From IMG/VR virus record IMGVR_UViG_3300030419_001084, positions 13,192 through 43,862 of that record: 30,671 nucleotides of DNA, one strand, 5' to 3'. Positions within the stretch are counted from its first letter, which is position 1. Each line of letters opens with the position of its first letter. The notes beneath the pieces were generated by a model, which saw only the letters and a program-made list of their open reading frames with translations, searched no databases and had not been told where the DNA came from. Of the stretch, positions 9,078-16,127 are shown piece after piece. The translations under genes and the position numbers were made by a program. The DNA is from a virus.

Positions 9078-9290
9078 TTAATTTTCTTCTTCATTATCCT
9101 CATCCCTTATTAATTCTTCATGTTCTATTATTCTATCCACAAATACACCAGACTCTTCTAACATACTCATTTCTTGTATTAGGTAATCTTCTGCTGATAA
9201 AGTATTACCATATATATGTTCTTTATCAGTTGGTGTGTATACAGATACTTCTATTATTACGTTTTGGAAACTCTCTATGTTTCTACTCAT
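9078..9290 (-). CDS. Unknown small acidic protein
   Basis: I start this gene at the ATG at 9290 (70 residues, MSRNIESFQNVII...), which has a perfect AAAGGAGG ribosome binding site and overlaps the amidoligase gene by 8 bases. A Met at 9338 lies inside that gene. A strand (VIIEVSVYTP) is followed by acidic helical stretches and a strongly acidic tail (RDEDNEEEN). Its tight coupling to the amidoligase makes it a possible partner or substrate, but no motif supports a specific role. Confidence 0.55.
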   Translation of the reverse strand: MSRNIESFQNVIIEVSVYTPTDKEHIYGNTLSAEDYLIQEMSMLEESGVFVDRIIEHEELIRDEDNEEEN

Positions 9291-10458
9291 TTTCTCTTCC
9301 TCCTTTGAACTTGCTAGTTCTCTTGTTAATATAGTCACATAGTTCTACTCCAAAAGTACTCACCATGTGTCTAATAGGTGTTTTCTTAATCCATTTATCA
9401 TACTCTTCTTCTGTATATTTTTCTAATTTTATGCCCATGTCTATTATCTTATTTAATATTTGTATCCAATTAACTATCTTGGTTTTGTTTAGAGTCCCAG
9501 AGTGTAGACGAAACTCTAGGGAGCCATGATAGTACCTAGAATGTATGTTTAATCCACAATATCTAGCGTCATTATACTTCTCTGCAGTAGGAGAAGAGTC
9601 CATGTAGTCGTAGTATGTTTCTATTAAATGTTCTTCGTCAGGAATTTGTCTCATAACTCTTATTGGTATAGGAAAGTCTTTACACCAATTAGAATCTTGT
9701 CTAGAGTTAGGCATCATACCTTTCAATATCTCTTCAAAATAACTATATACTATTGCTACATGAGATACCTGTCTAGCATTTAAATCTAATGAATTGAAGT
9801 GTACATGTAGACCACAGCTTCTATTCACTACTGCTTCTATACTATTAGACCAACTCATTAATCTGTCTATACTATCTAATAGTAAATCTCCACTAGCAGG
9901 ATAGCTTACCATTTCTATTCCCTCATACTCTCCCCCACTACTTATAGAGCCATCATTTGTACTAGTCCAATATTTAGGATTAGATATTGTATCATTCCAC
10001 TCTGGAAATAGACACTCAACTTCTATACCAACTAGTCTACGAACAGGAAACTTAAAAGACTCTGCTTCTCTAGAACAGGAAGGTGGTCTATTAGTGTCTA
10101 GGTTGTAGGTCATTTCACCTATATCATTAGGCACACAGCTACTACAATAAGGCTCATCATCTCTCCAATATACCTCGTCTCTATCTGTAGTTTCTCCACA
10201 ATGGGTACAATTCTCATAGATTTCATAGAAACAATCTTCACAATAGGGTTCGCCATGACCAAAATAAGCATAGTCTGTATGAGTTGATTCACTACAACTA
10301 GTGCAAATATAGAAAAGTTCATCATGGCATGGTTCACAATATCTCTCACCTTCTGCTAGTATAGAATTATTTCGCTCTACAGAATTACTACAACTACAAC
10401 ATTCTATTATATCGGGTGTTTCTACTGCTCTTTTTTGTACTTGTCTAAGTGTAGGCAT
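9283..10458 (-). CDS. COOH-NH2 ligase (amidoligase) with N-terminal zinc ribbons
   Basis: The 391-residue protein has two parts. Residues 20-108 carry repeated CxxC pairs (C20/C23, C41/C44, C52/C55, C73/C76, C84/C87, C105/C108), reading as about three zinc ribbons. Residues 141-325 match the Amidoligase_2 fold, a glutamine-synthetase-like ATP-dependent ligase: GIEVE (Glu146, Glu148), NDGSI (Asp169), EYEGIEMVSYP (Glu182), CGLHVHFN (His218, His220), NDARY (Arg299) and SLEFRLHSGT (Glu315, Arg317). All metal- and nucleotide-binding motifs seem intact. Such enzymes join a carboxylate to an amine. The substrate is unknown; protein, peptide or another metabolite are all possible. A second amidoligase and a glutamine amidotransferase lie in the same operon. 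Confidence 0.85.
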   Translation of the reverse strand: MPTLRQVQKRAVETPDIIECCSCSNSVERNNSILAEGERYCEPCHDELFYICTSCSESTHTDYAYFGHGEPYCEDCFYEIYENCTHCGETTDRDEVYWRDDEPYCSSCVPNDIGEMTYNLDTNRPPSCSREAESFKFPVRRLVGIEVECLFPEWNDTISNPKYWTSTNDGSISSGGEYEGIEMVSYPASGDLLLDSIDRLMSWSNSIEAVVNRSCGLHVHFNSLDLNARQVSHVAIVYSYFEEILKGMMPNSRQDSNWCKDFPIPIRVMRQIPDEEHLIETYYDYMDSSPTAEKYNDARYCGLNIHSRYYHGSLEFRLHSGTLNKTKIVNWIQILNKIIDMGIKLEKYTEEEYDKWIKKTPIRHMVSTFGVELCDYINKRTSKFKGGRENE

Positions 10459-10459
10459 A

Positions 10460-10789
10460 CTAGACTCCTATGTTAGTAGCTTCTATAATACCAATTATAA
10501 AAGCATTTATCACCTTCAGCCAATTCATTTTCTTCAGAGTATCGTAGATATCATCTTCTAGTGTATCAGAATTTCTATCTATTTTTGCATCAATAGAACC
10601 CATAACATCTATTTGATTAAGTAAGAAGTCTAAATACTCTTCGTAAGAAGAGTCTACTAGAAATGGATTTTTCTTAGCTCTCTTATATAGAGTTTCTATT
10701 ACAAACTTCTTAGATTTTAATTTAATAGGATTAGGAAACCCTACTAATATTACTTTCTTTTTAGAATCCGAACCATCTGGTATCTTCAT
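10460..10789 (-). CDS. Unknown 109-residue protein between amidotransferase and amidoligase
   Basis: The ATG at 10789 has a perfect AAGGAGGT ribosome binding site and is preferred over a Met at 10819 that lies inside the amidotransferase gene. The protein starts MKIPDGSDSKKKVILVGFPNP, then is Lys-rich and helical (LKSKKFVIETLYKRAKKNPF, YEEYLDFLLNQI), and ends with the hydrophobic stretch VINAFIIGIIEATNIGV. It overlaps the amidotransferase by 29 bases and ends one base before the amidoligase gene, so it is surely part of that operon. I do not recognise a family. It could be the substrate, a scaffold or a third enzyme component of the amidoligase system. Confidence 0.65.
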   Translation of the reverse strand: MKIPDGSDSKKKVILVGFPNPIKLKSKKFVIETLYKRAKKNPFLVDSSYEEYLDFLLNQIDVMGSIDAKIDRNSDTLEDDIYDTLKKMNWLKVINAFIIGIIEATNIGV

Positions 10790-11828
10790 CTGTATTACCT
10801 CCTTCTCTTTTATCTTCATTACTATATGTATCTCTAGTGGTGTTGTCGTAATCCTCGTTTAAATACTCACAATCAAAGCATACATACTTACCTCTCTCGT
10901 CTTGCCATACCTCGTCTTGTGCAATCCACTCATAGCAATAACTACACATCTCTTTTCTATTATCGCAAGTTATAGGTAAGTTTTTACTAGCTGGACTTGG
11001 ATTACCTATGCTAGTATAACTACTTTGACCGAACCTACTAGAATTGTAGTAGCCGTATCCTCCGTAGCCATAACCTCTACTATAGTCGTACTGAGATATA
11101 GTCTCAAAGGGTACTTGCTTTCTTCTAGGTTTACTATCAAACTCATCTGTATTATATGTAAATATATAATCCTCTGGTACTTCCTTGATAGGTAGAACTA
11201 GACCTGCATTCATCATAGCTTCTTTCATTATATCTCTAGTAGATGCCCATAGTAGAACTCTAGCTTTCTTCCAATACGCTGTTACCATAGGTCTACCAGA
11301 CTCTCTAGCTAGATGTATCTTCTTATTACTATCTTTTACCCATGTTATAGCAAAGTCTCCATCTATATCCTCAAAAGCCTTGCTCATAGCATTTCTATTA
11401 AGAGATTGAAATAGAACTTGTGAGTCTACTTCGGGTACTTTCTTACCCATTTCCTTAGCTACTTTATTATAGTTGTAGATAACACCATTGTGAGCACCTG
11501 TTACTCTCCCTATATTAAACGGATGAGCATTAGTTACTTTTACCTTGCCATGAGTAGCTAGTCTAACATGACCTATTACAATGGTAGTATCTCTTGTGAT
11601 TCTAGGTAGAATATCTGTATACCAATCATCTGAGTCTACAAACGTAGATGAATCATCTAATGTCTTATAAGTGTACCTGTTCTCTGAGTCCATAATAGAA
11701 AACCCAGTACTATCAGTACCTCTTATAGAAGATTCGTCTGTAAGTTCAGTAAATACTCTCTTGAGTATTTCTAGTTGGTTATCAGATTGTCTATTGCTAG
11801 TTTTAGCAAAGCCAAAAATACCACACAT
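10761..11828 (-). CDS. Class II glutamine amidotransferase with C-terminal zinc ribbon
   Basis: The protein (355 residues) begins MCGIFGF, so Cys2 would be the Ntn-hydrolase nucleophile after Met removal. Supporting motifs are SIRGTDSTG (34-42), GHVRLATHG (86-94), AHPF (101-104), GAHNG (111-115) and VDSQ (134-137), all expected for GATase class II, which releases ammonia from glutamine. A Gly/Tyr-rich linker (residues about 250-270) leads to a zinc ribbon with C295/C298 and C317/C320 (CSYC...CFDC) and an acidic tail. No synthase or sugar isomerase domain is fused, so ammonia would go to a separate partner, most simply the adjacent amidoligases. A ribosome binding site AAAGGAG precedes the ATG. 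The zinc ribbon resembles those of the amidoligase encoded downstream. Confidence 0.9.
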   Translation of the reverse strand: MCGIFGFAKTSNRQSDNQLEILKRVFTELTDESSIRGTDSTGFSIMDSENRYTYKTLDDSSTFVDSDDWYTDILPRITRDTTIVIGHVRLATHGKVKVTNAHPFNIGRVTGAHNGVIYNYNKVAKEMGKKVPEVDSQVLFQSLNRNAMSKAFEDIDGDFAITWVKDSNKKIHLARESGRPMVTAYWKKARVLLWASTRDIMKEAMMNAGLVLPIKEVPEDYIFTYNTDEFDSKPRRKQVPFETISQYDYSRGYGYGGYGYYNSSRFGQSSYTSIGNPSPASKNLPITCDNRKEMCSYCYEWIAQDEVWQDERGKYVCFDCEYLNEDYDNTTRDTYSNEDKREGGNTDEDTRWFGF

Positions 11829-11851
11829 ACTGATTTTCTCCTTTATTGTTA

Positions 11852-13693
11852 TTAGTTATTATTATCTATTCTCCTTTCTATATACTCAGCACCCCATACT
11901 CCTGTTGTATCTCTTACTATATCAATAGACTGAGTTTTTGTAGAAATTATTTTACTATATAATTTAGTATTCTTATGAAGTTTTGTAGAAGTATCCATTA
12001 TCTTATTTAAAAATCTTATCCAATCTTCTATTGGTTTAGACCTAATCGTACCTTCATGGTATCTAAATTCTACTGAACCCATATAGAACCTAGCGTGTAT
12101 ATTAGTTCCTGTGTATCTAGCTTCATTATATTTTGTATCATCTAGTATCGAGTCTTGTATATTATAGTATGAATTTACTAGAGTAGGTAAATCATTTATA
12201 GATGCCCATTCTTTAGAAGTTATAGGTATTTCTCTACAATAGTTTTTACTTCTATAATTAGGTAATCCTTGATAGATAGATGTTTGTATTCTAGACATTA
12301 TCATTAGTAGAGATTTTAATTCTGTAAATCCAAAATCTATTGCATTTATATGTATATGAACACCACAGCTTTCATCTACAGAGTTATATTCATCTAGGTT
12401 ACATTCTTCTAAAGAATCTAATGCTCCATCTACTTGTCTACCTATTACAGGTCTCTCTGTAACAAATTCTACCCCTCCACCATTTAGAGAACCATCTTCT
12501 ACTACTTTAAAATACATAGGTATTGAAGCATTATCATAATAATGGTCTGCTCCCTCATATTCAGTTATAACTTCGCTTTCTATTCCTACAAATCTATTAA
12601 AATTTGTCTTGTTATCATATTTATTAGGTAAATGCAATCCTCTAAATGGACTAAATAGAATATTATTTAACTTGAATGTAGCACACGTATTGCAATATGT
12701 TCTCTGCATTATGTGTTTATATTTTCTATTTCTATATTTAAATTTATTTAGAAAATCGTTCTTTTCTCTCTTATCACAATTTCTAAGAATTTCTAAGTCT
12801 ACTATATCAATCGCTTTACATCTTGTACAGCTAACATAGAACATTCCATAGCAACTATTACAGCAAACCTTTGCTTCTACTAACTCTAGCATTTGTTTTT
12901 CCATTTCTCTAGCTTTGCTTATATCATTAGAGTTGCCTATAGAAACACTTGAATAGCAAACTTCACAATCTACTTTTTCAATAACGTAGCATTTGTCACA
13001 TATTCTATAATCTGAATACTCTTGCAAATGATTATCTATTTTCTTGCAAAACTTACATCTATAGTATGCGTCTACATTTCTTGTTTGACACTCTATTAAG
13101 TTTCTAAGAATTTTACTATTAATTTTATCTAAATAGAACCTATTGCAACCATTATACCTATCTCTAGAGTAAATTAATCTAGAATCATTTTTATCTACAA
13201 GTTCAGATTCCATTAATTTAAGATGTACACTTACATCCATATCTTCTTTTCTTCTATATATACCATTACTAGCTATATCATTTATCATAGATTCTGCATC
13301 TAGATATCCATTTATCTGGTTTTCTTGCACTAGATAATGTTTAATACCATTAGGATAACTAGATTCATTATGATAGGCAATAGATATTAATTCTTTGTGC
13401 ATATATAACAAATCAGAAGCTCTACATATTACATTTCTTCTATCTTGCGTATAATATCTAGGCTCTAATAGAACTCCAACAGGAAAACAATTATCTTCTA
13501 GTTCATCTTCGCTATAATGTTTCACATCTATTATTTTAAATAGACGACTAGCTATTGAAGTGTATTCATATACATCTAGAGTAGTACCCTCATAGGTAGA
13601 CATATCGTTTAAATCAATATTAGAGAAACTATATTCAGTAGTATATCTAGCTCTAGCAGTACTTATTAGAAAAACTTCATTTGAATAGAGCAT
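11852..13693 (-). CDS. Large amidoligase with extended N-terminus and zinc-binding cysteine pairs
   Basis: The protein has 613 residues. Residues 1-205 are an unrecognised strand-rich region. Residues 213-337 hold CxxC pairs (C213/C216, C232/C235, C243/C246, C278/C281, C289/C292, C334/C337), probably three zinc ribbons. The C-terminal Amidoligase_2 domain carries GIESE (370-374), EDGSLNGGGVEFVTERP (Asp400, Glu409), CGVHIHIN (His446, His448), NEARYTG (Arg526) and SVEFRYHEGT (Glu542, Arg544). It is clearly paralogous to the 391-residue amidoligase encoded downstream. A strong AAGGAG precedes the start. Two ligases with similar ribbons suggest either two successive ligations or a heteromeric enzyme; the sequence does not say which. 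Confidence 0.85.
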   Translation of the reverse strand: MLYSNEVFLISTARARYTTEYSFSNIDLNDMSTYEGTTLDVYEYTSIASRLFKIIDVKHYSEDELEDNCFPVGVLLEPRYYTQDRRNVICRASDLLYMHKELISIAYHNESSYPNGIKHYLVQENQINGYLDAESMINDIASNGIYRRKEDMDVSVHLKLMESELVDKNDSRLIYSRDRYNGCNRFYLDKINSKILRNLIECQTRNVDAYYRCKFCKKIDNHLQEYSDYRICDKCYVIEKVDCEVCYSSVSIGNSNDISKAREMEKQMLELVEAKVCCNSCYGMFYVSCTRCKAIDIVDLEILRNCDKREKNDFLNKFKYRNRKYKHIMQRTYCNTCATFKLNNILFSPFRGLHLPNKYDNKTNFNRFVGIESEVITEYEGADHYYDNASIPMYFKVVEDGSLNGGGVEFVTERPVIGRQVDGALDSLEECNLDEYNSVDESCGVHIHINAIDFGFTELKSLLMIMSRIQTSIYQGLPNYRSKNYCREIPITSKEWASINDLPTLVNSYYNIQDSILDDTKYNEARYTGTNIHARFYMGSVEFRYHEGTIRSKPIEDWIRFLNKIMDTSTKLHKNTKLYSKIISTKTQSIDIVRDTTGVWGAEYIERRIDNNN

Positions 13694-14666: not shown

Positions 14667-14942
14667 CTATTTATAACTAAATATATTTTTAGGATTTACT
14701 ACTTCATATTTATCTAAGACTTCATCACCATAGACATCTTTTGATATAAAGAGAGAATCAACTATTCTATCTTCACATTCTTTCTCTTTAAAAAAGCCAT
14801 GTCTACATTCTTTTTCTAGTTCGTAGCCTAGTACATTTTCTCTATCATATCTTAATACTCTAGCTGTTTTATCTACTTCGTCTATAACAGCTACTATTGT
14901 CCAAACAGAGTCTATTAATCTGTTTGTTATCAGTTCTACCAT
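14667..14942 (-). CDS. Unknown small protein
   Basis: It has 91 residues and a strong AAGGAGG ribosome binding site. Strands (SVWTIVAVIDEVDKTARVLRY) are followed by a charged region with cysteines (ECRHGFFKEKECEDRIV) and a strand-rich end. It is the first gene after tRNA-like element 1 on the minus strand, about 40 bases downstream of it. No family is recognised. Confidence 0.55.
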   Translation of the reverse strand: MVELITNRLIDSVWTIVAVIDEVDKTARVLRYDRENVLGYELEKECRHGFFKEKECEDRIVDSLFISKDVYGDEVLDKYEVVNPKNIFSYK

Positions 14943-14984
14943 AGAACCTCCTTGTTATCTATTAATAAAACTTTTCTATATTTG

Positions 14985-15027
14985 AGCCTCGCTAGAGAAT
15001 CGAACTCTAATCTATACCATACGAGGC
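14985..15027 (-). ncRNA. tRNA-like element 1 without an anticodon arm
   Basis: Reading the minus strand, a 7-base acceptor-like helix (15027-15021 with 14992-14986, one G-U pair) encloses an 11-base linker containing TGGT and a perfect 5-base T stem (15009-15005 with 14997-14993). The T stem closes the consensus T loop TTCGATT. The two stems stack to the 12 base pairs of a normal acceptor/T domain, and GG plus TTC would allow the elbow contact. The anticodon arm and D stem are missing, so it cannot decode. It lies between two genes. Its closest functional analogues are mitochondrial t-elements or a tmRNA tRNA-like domain; function here is unknown. Confidence 0.5.
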
Positions 15028-15033
15028 TTTAGC

Positions 15034-15072
15034 TTACTCTATGATTTTGTAGGCATTCTAATCTCCTTATTG
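15034..15072 (-). other. Five-codon mini-ORF with strong ribosome binding site before tRNA-like element 1
   Basis: On the minus strand AATAAGGAGAT is followed by ATG-CCT-ACA-AAA-TCA-TAG, a five-residue frame (MPTKS). Further stops in other frames come right after it, and the tRNA-like element 1 begins 15-20 bases later. The start signal is as good as those of real neighbours, so it is either a decayed gene start or a regulatory mini-frame. Confidence 0.4.
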
Positions 15073-15115: not shown

Positions 15116-15547
15116 TTATATACCTCTATTGTTACTAGAAGCATATCTTTTTCTATCAAATATCCTCATGTCTATTTTTTTCTTACTAGACTTATATGGT
15201 GTCTCTACCACCATTTTTCTCTTGATATTAGACATTCTCTTAATCTGTCTCTCTCTAATATCTATTCTATCAAACTTATCTAGAATGATTCCTTTACCTA
15301 GACCAAAACTTAGTCTAGTATTGGTTTCATTCTCTATAACTATAATTGCTGTATCATGTTTTACGCATAGATTATAACTTCTGTCTATAAAGTCCCAAAC
15401 CTCTCTATAAGTTTTGTATTCTATAGGATTTCCATTATCTATGGTAACTCTGAATCTAGTATCTATTTTATCTATGTGGAAATAGAGTAAATTTTCTTCC
15501 TCTCTATCTTCCACAGAGGGAATAAATACCTCTCTCTGAATTATCAT
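15116..15547 (-). CDS. Unknown basic protein
   Basis: It has 143 residues. The first half is strand-rich with alternating charges (EENLLYFHIDKIDTRFRVTID), and the last 45 residues are strongly basic (RQIKRMSNIKRKMVV, SSKKKIDMRIFDRKRY). An AAGGGT ribosome binding site precedes the start. tRNA-like elements lie on both sides of this gene, element 2 upstream and element 1 downstream. The basic tail suggests nucleic-acid binding. No family is recognised. Confidence 0.6.
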   Translation of the reverse strand: MIIQREVFIPSVEDREEENLLYFHIDKIDTRFRVTIDNGNPIEYKTYREVWDFIDRSYNLCVKHDTAIIVIENETNTRLSFGLGKGIILDKFDRIDIRERQIKRMSNIKRKMVVETPYKSSKKKIDMRIFDRKRYASSNNRGI

Positions 15548-15623: not shown

Positions 15624-15672
15624 GAACCTATAGAGGGAATTGAACCCTCTTAAAACTCACCAGAGATAGGTT
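15624..15672 (-). ncRNA. tRNA-like element 2 without an anticodon arm
   Basis: On the minus strand AACCTAT (15672-15666) pairs perfectly with ATAGGTT (15631-15625). Between them are a 15-base linker containing TGGTGAG and a 6-base T stem (15650-15645 with 15637-15632) that closes the consensus loop TTCAATT. As in element 1, acceptor, D-loop GG and T arm are present, and the anticodon arm and D stem are absent. It starts 18 bases after the stop of the gene at 15690. The two elements differ in sequence but share the design, which argues against chance. No CCA is encoded. Confidence 0.5.
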
Positions 15673-15689
15673 TTTTATTCTATCAGATT

Positions 15690-16127
15690 CTACTCTGAAT
15701 CTGTAGAAGTTTCTACTTTCTTGGTTTCTACTTTCTTTTCAGAGTTCCAATTAGCGTTTACAAGTTTAAAATTGTAACCTATCTTTCTGGCTACTATTTT
15801 GACAAACTCCTTATTCTCATTAACTAGAGTTACATTTTTATTTAACTCTGCTAATGTTGTTTTTAGAGTTTCTTGAGTCTCCTTATCAACTCCCTCTGAT
15901 ACCAAGTTAGTAGAATGCTCATTAATAGCCTTAATTAAAGATAGGGCTTTATTTTCCTTAGTACCCTTAATTAGGTTATTGTCTGTATATCTCCTTACTT
16001 CACTCTCTTGAAAATCCTTTAATGTAGGAAATTGAGTTTCTAGAAATGGCATTTGAGTATATTGCAATTTCGCTTCTAGGTTTATTTCCTCTACAGATTT
16101 TCTGATAGGTTTAGGTGTTGTAGACAT
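15690..16127 (-). CDS. Unknown helical protein
   Basis: It has 145 residues, with a strong AAAGGAG ribosome binding site. It starts Pro/Lys-rich (STTPKPIRKSVEE), has helical segments with regular leucines (ETLKTTLAELNKNVTLV, residues about 85-101) and ends in a Lys/Glu/Ser-rich tail. It is the first gene downstream of the 732-base noncoding region and is likely expressed early. No family is recognised. Confidence 0.6.
   Translation of the reverse strand: MSTTPKPIRKSVEEINLEAKLQYTQMPFLETQFPTLKDFQESEVRRYTDNNLIKGTKENKALSLIKAINEHSTNLVSEGVDKETQETLKTTLAELNKNVTLVNENKEFVKIVARKIGYNFKLVNANWNSEKKVETKKVETSTDSE

Follow-up and report, generated by a model that had tools for sequence, protein, structure and literature searches.

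A compact tRNA-like element with a mini D-arm and no anticodon arm in the intercistronic spacers of many bacteriophages

We analyzed a 30,671-nucleotide stretch of viral DNA (hereafter the window), which covers positions 13192-43862 of the 43,862-bp IMG/VR virus record IMGVR_UViG_3300030419_001084, and confirmed that a tRNA-like element (element 1) lies on its minus strand at 14985-15028, in the spacer between two co-directional genes. Sequence comparisons indicate that the element is built of an acceptor stem, a mini D-arm and a T-arm, that the anticodon arm is absent, and that it belongs to a widespread family of phage RNAs. As a kind of molecule this is a tRNA-like element; what is new is its anatomy (mini D-arm, no anticodon arm), its carrier and its placement in operons. 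The family has no Rfam entry, and we found no description of it in the open-licence full-text literature of PMC.

Read from 15028 down to 14985, element 1 begins with A15028, which pairs with T14985, followed by the acceptor 5' strand GCCTCG (15022-15027), the mini D-arm TA-TGG-TA of two base pairs around an NGG loop (15015-15021), the linker TAGA, the T-arm TTAGAG-TTCGATT-CTCTAG (14992-15010), the acceptor 3' strand CGAGGC (14986-14991) and the discriminator U at 14985. The trailer CAAA (14981-14984) corresponds to the tail C-[T/A]-A-A seen across the family. An initial annotation of this DNA had described seven acceptor pairs and five T-stem pairs with the exact T-loop consensus, and in that register these are all present, the last acceptor pair being T.G; the register of the relatives instead gives a 12-bp stack of six plus six pairs, extended by the outer A-U pair at 15028. 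Its placement of the element between two genes and the lack of an anticodon arm were likewise upheld, whereas its statement that there is no D stem was not: a D stem of two (type 1) or three (type 2) base pairs is present, and its variation is compensated in relatives. Nor is the element part of a longer ordinary tRNA, since ARAGORN reported no tRNA and Rfam no match at gathering threshold in the window.

The RNA of element 1 folds at -14.8 kcal/mol (z = -2.34; 5 of 200 shuffles were equally good) into two stems stacked on each other and a T loop of seven bases. In 300 windows simulated with an order-2 Markov model and scanned on both strands, minihelices within 30 nt that had all 7+5 pairs and a T loop matching the consensus arose 0.047 times per window, and 0.01 times when GG was also required in the linker. 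Covariance model R1, which was built partly from element 1, scored it at 56.6 bits (E = 1.8e-14), and model R2 at 53.6 bits. Element 1 thus displays the features by which we delimit the family: a stack of 12-13 bp, a mini D-arm XANGGUX', the T loop and the tail N-C-[T/A]-A-A.

The spacer between the next two genes, 0.6 kb away, holds another element on that strand. Element 2 (15625-15672, minus strand) consists of AACCTAT, a D-arm CTC-TGGT-GAG, a T-arm AGAGGG-TTCAATT-CCCTCT and ATAGGTT, and shares the family features with a D stem of three base pairs. R2 scored it at 29.2 bits (E = 1.4e-5), a level that the 3' halves of ordinary tRNAs can also reach. Its relative at locus L014 reads CTT-TGGT-AAG in the D-arm, a compensated change.

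The genes around both elements are on the minus strand and without PHROG assignment. Downstream of element 1, a 91-aa gene (14667-14942) starts 42 nt past the element behind an AAGGAGG Shine-Dalgarno sequence, and no relatives of it were found among the viral contigs searched. The 143-aa gene between the elements (15116-15547), for which one relative was found, starts 77 nt after element 2 and stops 87 nt before element 1, and a 145-aa gene (15690-16127) stops 17 nt before element 2. Just upstream of element 1, at 15039-15056 on the minus strand, is a five-codon frame, ATGCCTACAAAATCATAG, with AAGGAG ahead of it. A gene starting MPKGKRKK adjoins the elements of L032 and L036, and the ATGCCTACAAAATCATAG frame of the window may be its remnant. 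Elsewhere in the window (9283-13693), genes for two amidoligase-like proteins cluster with one for a glutamine amidotransferase-like protein; in L131, too, the element is preceded by an amidoligase-like gene.

To sample the phage clade of the window we used relatives of its terminase, keeping 80 of 176 loci. In 25 loci the sequence extends 6.5 kb or more upstream of the terminase gene, and nine of them carry the element, 4.4-5.5 kb upstream of that gene and on the opposite strand, as in the window; this restriction to 9 of 25 implies that the element is dispensable. Across the clade the acceptor strands change in a compensated manner (GCCTCG/CGAGGC, GCCTTG/CAAGGC, AGCCTAG/CTAGGCT, AATCTAG/CTAGGTT, AACCTAT/ATAGGTT), and in none of 32 clade loci did ARAGORN report a tRNA. 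L045, outside the 25, carries a 59-nt variant (36.3 bits) with an extra hairpin where the anticodon arm would be. L036 and L063 lie on one 64-kb contig, IMGVR_UViG_3300030101_002855, which holds two terminase regions, only one of which has the element; this duplication may reflect a chimeric assembly or tandem genomes.

A DNA pattern derived from the clade recovered elements of this architecture from numerous unrelated viral contigs. A scan that places no demand on the stems (TATGGTA-N8..14-TTCGATT-N11..13-WCTAA) matched in 47 contigs, and across all loci collected at that stage it gave 35 distinct cores, of which 30 form at least 11 of the 12 acceptor and T-stem pairs. When 5' and 3' parts were swapped between cores, the same level was reached in 186 of 1892 combinations, some of them between near-identical copies. 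Two looser scans, which required nothing but GGT, the T loop, three pairs of the T stem and the tail, returned at least 120 stretches each; ARAGORN identified 53 of the 224 matches listed as ordinary tRNA or tmRNA, and these were removed. Of the 115 distinct remaining matches listed, 81 form at least 11 of the 12 pairs; loci from the earlier scans were not counted among them, and none of the 81 contains TATGGTA, the corresponding segment reading AATGGTT, CATGGTG, GATGGTC and so on. The initial annotation had expected compensatory changes in both stems among related phages, and this is strongly borne out, with covariation in all stems. In alignment A2 (46 of 53 non-redundant elements) both-sided changes occur at 11 of the 12 pairs; since a pairing score of at least 10.7 was the condition for entry into the 53, these counts are biased towards pairing, and the test with free stems is the scan described above.

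The D-arm claim rests on the bases X and X' that flank the loop, because MAFFT misplaces X' in some rows of alignment A6; in A6 (51 chosen sequences, partly misaligned at this site) the two-pair D stem is kept in 90.4% of cells. In 38 non-redundant cases X/X' was A-U 19 times, C-G seven times, G-C four times and another combination eight times, so that the outer pair is Watson-Crick in 30 of 38 cases versus 16 expected. Together with the U-A pair of the TATGGTA set, this makes a covarying two-pair D stem around NGG. GG and the U that follows are present in 48 of 49 non-redundant elements and the T loop is almost invariant, an invariance that is partly ascertainment, as the search patterns fix much of both motifs. 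Acceptor pairs are of all standard types and the acceptor sequence is free, which argues against a fixed aminoacylation identity. The conserved parts are the ones measured by a tRNA ruler enzyme, and the variable parts the ones that a synthetase would read.

Downstream of the acceptor, 37 of the 49 elements have C at position 74 and 48 have T or A at position 75, counts that are inflated by the selection of part of the 49 for a WCTAA tail; C at position 74 also predominates among matches of the tail-free scan. In four Bacteroidota genomes inspected by eye, the distinct tRNA genes listed mostly end in a discriminator, C and an A/T-rich stretch with no encoded CCA, and a minority encode CCA. The tail of the element (discriminator, C, A/T) copies this 3' context of Bacteroidota tRNA genes. 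In L164, L114, L086, L113 and L098 a second small inverted repeat lies between element and start codon (for example GTGACaattaaGTCAC in L086). At the other end, a recurring stretch, GAATGAGTAA / GAACAAGTAA, abuts the acceptor 5' end in L139, L141, L153, L160, L198, L437 and others; it belongs to one phage group, and a promoter, a gene end or a leader signal is conceivable.

Genes on carrier contigs are most similar to those of Flavobacteriia phages or crAss-like phages. The terminase of L194 is closest to phages of Flavobacteriia, the GroEL of L129 best matches an unassigned spring phage and then Flavobacterium phages, and the polymerase of L221 is closest to crAss-like phages. GroEL genes occur in the element-bearing phage contigs L129, L160, L226 and L143. 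Among 21 records of named phages, a convincing copy occurs in one alone, that of the crAss-like cr130_1 (R1, 42.7 bits). Matches in the others are weak and, as far as they can be read, fall in T-arms of tRNA or tmRNA or in similar 3' halves, and the element is absent from the other crAss-like and the Flavobacterium, Cellulophaga, Polaribacter, Maribacter, Croceibacter, Nonlabens and Riemerella phages tested. The stretch 1199-1467 of the cr130_1 locus (L254, NC_055901.1) shows, just ahead of the element, a permuted tmRNA (RF04321, 54.4 bits, above the gathering threshold of 47) and a tRNA, recognized by eye, whose anticodon loop has UUA; in the record the entire stretch is annotated as a single tmRNA. 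In 395 Bacteroidota genomes, with 15 candidates scored per genome and hence only a weak negative otherwise, R2 found one true copy, L541, on a 47.5-kb contig with phage head, protease and lysin genes; two further matches were tRNA-Leu false positives. An equally weak negative came from 398 Bacillota genomes, which gave no match at 1e-6 with 15 candidates scored per genome. A cellular origin was considered and rejected: the pattern scan of cellular genome contigs returned six stretches, four within ordinary tRNAs and two without a proper acceptor. As for the window itself, 16 of its 28 genes have Shine-Dalgarno-like leaders, so its host may not be a member of the Bacteroidota.

The position of the element relative to genes is strongly oriented. 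In set 1 (53 non-redundant elements; a gene start was counted where an ATG open reading frame had 40 codons or more, or an open one 15 or more), a same-strand gene starts within 150 nt downstream in 47 of 53 cases versus 7 of 53 in the mirrored direction, and a same-strand frame ends within 150 nt upstream in 39 of 53. The corresponding figures for set 2 are 43 of 47 versus 9 of 47 mirrored for starts, and 33 of 47 versus 13 mirrored for ends. Element and start codon are a median of 22 nt apart in set 2 (8-31 nt in 32 of 43), and the leaders there are A-rich, Shine-Dalgarno-like in 4 of 36; the distances in set 1 are longer and scattered. The elements thus lie on the sense strand between apparently co-transcribed genes, with orientation taken from the open reading frames. 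Among the cases with an upstream gene, 7 of 38 and 10 of 33 have its stop codon overlapping the first base or bases of the element.

Copy number varies. Searches of whole records gave matches at E<=0.001 in 21 of 22 records, 13 with one match and eight with two to eight, and the many single-copy records indicate that the element is not general punctuation. At L183, seven elements lie between successive small genes, and its record has eight matches in 3.5 kb. In four lineages (L084, L118, L182, L194) the element follows the major head protein gene. The idea of a single partner gene was rejected: no PHROG family recurred among downstream genes in more than one member (33 scanned of 47), and upstream genes share little, the top families, major head protein, occurring in two members (28 scanned of 39). 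We also discarded the ATG of TATGGTA as a start codon; the frames it opens look random in length (2-257 codons, most below 30), and other lineages read AACGGTT.

The element can be set beside several known RNAs. With tRNA (RF00005) it shares the 12-bp acceptor/T stack, the T loop TTCRANN, the D-loop GG and the discriminator, but element 1 has no anticodon arm or cloverleaf, and element 2 scores 14.2 bits against a gathering threshold of 29. The tRNA-like domain of tmRNA also combines an acceptor and T-arm with a reduced D-arm and no anticodon arm; the phage element, unlike tmRNA, is a closed single piece of about 44 nt with no mRNA-like or tag-coding part, RF00023 and RF04321 gave no hit in the window, and Rfam matches at elements stayed below threshold. 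In mitochondria, t-elements and tRNA punctuation place a tRNA-like fold between genes, with stop codons near or overlapping its 5' end and cutting by RNase P and RNase Z. The intergenic tRNA-like fold, nearby stop codons and proposed RNase P/Z cutting recur here, but in bacteriophages, without an anticodon arm and often once per genome, and the cutting is in our case predicted. The atypical minimal mitochondrial tRNAs of mites and nematodes are miniaturized too; they keep the anticodon but have lost D or T arms, whereas in the phage element both the D and the T loop remain and the anticodon is gone. The M3 and C4 RNAs of phages are single cases and are not known to constitute a minimal acceptor/D/T family or intercistronic marks. 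Phage M3 RNA and the P1/P7 C4 antisense RNA are phage RNAs cut by host RNase P (PMC11143913). MascRNA-menRNA (RF01684) is likewise tRNA-like, lacks a usable anticodon and ends a longer transcript, but is an animal nuclear RNA longer than the phage element; RF01684 scored 14.1 bits at element 2 and 25.7 bits at L142, far below its gathering threshold of 42.5. Its precursors MALAT-1 and Men-beta are named as RNase P substrates in a source which also states that RNase P accepts any RNA presenting a T-stem/acceptor stack, the D-loop appearing dispensable (PMC4919913).

We tentatively propose, at a little under even confidence, that host RNase Z, and perhaps RNase P too, cuts the element to set mRNA ends. 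A mimic of the top half of tRNA would be maintained in intercistronic spacers of phage mRNAs, and docking of its D-loop GG with the T loop would form a tRNA elbow. RNase Z would read elbow and stack as a ruler and cut after the discriminator. The mRNA of the downstream gene would then start at a defined point and carry a short leader (42 nt at element 1, about 13-30 nt in the larger group), and the upstream mRNA would finish in a compact tRNA-like 3' end. An RNase P cut would remove the overlapping stop codons, which favors the 3' cut by RNase Z and argues against an obligatory cut by RNase P; where the upstream stop codon lies clear, an optional 5' cut might release an RNA of about 44 nt. The initial annotation had likened the element to mitochondrial t-elements that mark mRNA processing sites; as a proposal, this fits the position and conservation data best.

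That the element acts instead in trans, as a small RNA of about 44 nt or a decoy occupying host tRNA enzymes (RNase P, RNase Z, the CCA-adding enzyme, TruB/TrmA) or a tRNA-targeting defence, is in our estimate unlikely, though not negligible. Single copies in 13 of the 21 matching records, the lack of a fixed gene partner, the highly expressed site behind the major head protein gene and the conservation of just those parts that such enzymes read would suit it; a trans-acting RNA, however, has no need of strict sense placement before start codons, arrays between small genes resemble punctuation in cis, and excision at the 5' end would be costly where stop codons overlap. Also unlikely in our view, though not negligible, is that the element stays uncut in the 5' untranslated region and promotes or controls the downstream translation start, for instance with its tRNA elbow beside the E-site region of the ribosome. 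About 22 nt, the median distance in set 2, is roughly where mRNA exits the ribosome; the 8-31 nt spacing, the A-rich set 2 leaders with few Shine-Dalgarno-like sequences and the start codon almost directly past the L541 element agree with such a role, yet the tail resembles a tRNA 3'-processing site, set 1 distances are scattered and element 1 precedes an ordinary Shine-Dalgarno sequence. A broader version is a long shot: the family may be a large class of phage 5'-leader RNAs, in which a free-standing elbow of mini D-arm and T-arm on a 12-bp ruler, at a short and fairly fixed distance before the start codon, would take over for gene expression the host machinery that reads tRNAs and serve as an IRES-like device of bacterial translation initiation, with or without trimming by RNase Z. 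A transcription terminator or anti-decay hairpin with no tRNA mimicry would account for the location at the 3' ends of genes, but we hold it very improbable: the tails CTAA or CAAA include no T run, the sequence 3' of element 1, CAAATATAG, is likewise not the T run that follows the GC-rich hairpin of an intrinsic terminator, and a plain hairpin needs neither a constant T loop nor GG. A decayed tRNA gene or chance fold, for which the tRNA parts and the modest z-score of the fold could be cited, is barely credible given chance rates of 0.01-0.05 per window, compensatory changes in many lineages and a near-invariant GG and T loop; the pairing and covariation found by the stem-free scan refute it.

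If the proposed cutting by RNase Z is correct, the family would be a bacterial counterpart of tRNA punctuation, operating in phages and present in many lineages of uncultivated phages, in at least one genome of the crAss-like group and in one phage contig associated with Bacteroidota. We know of no smaller conserved tRNA mimic that bears an elbow. The element would then provide a natural minimal substrate for studies of RNase P and RNase Z, with predictions at single-base resolution, and would explain how operons obtain their mRNA ends and leaders in hosts that rely little on Shine-Dalgarno sequences.
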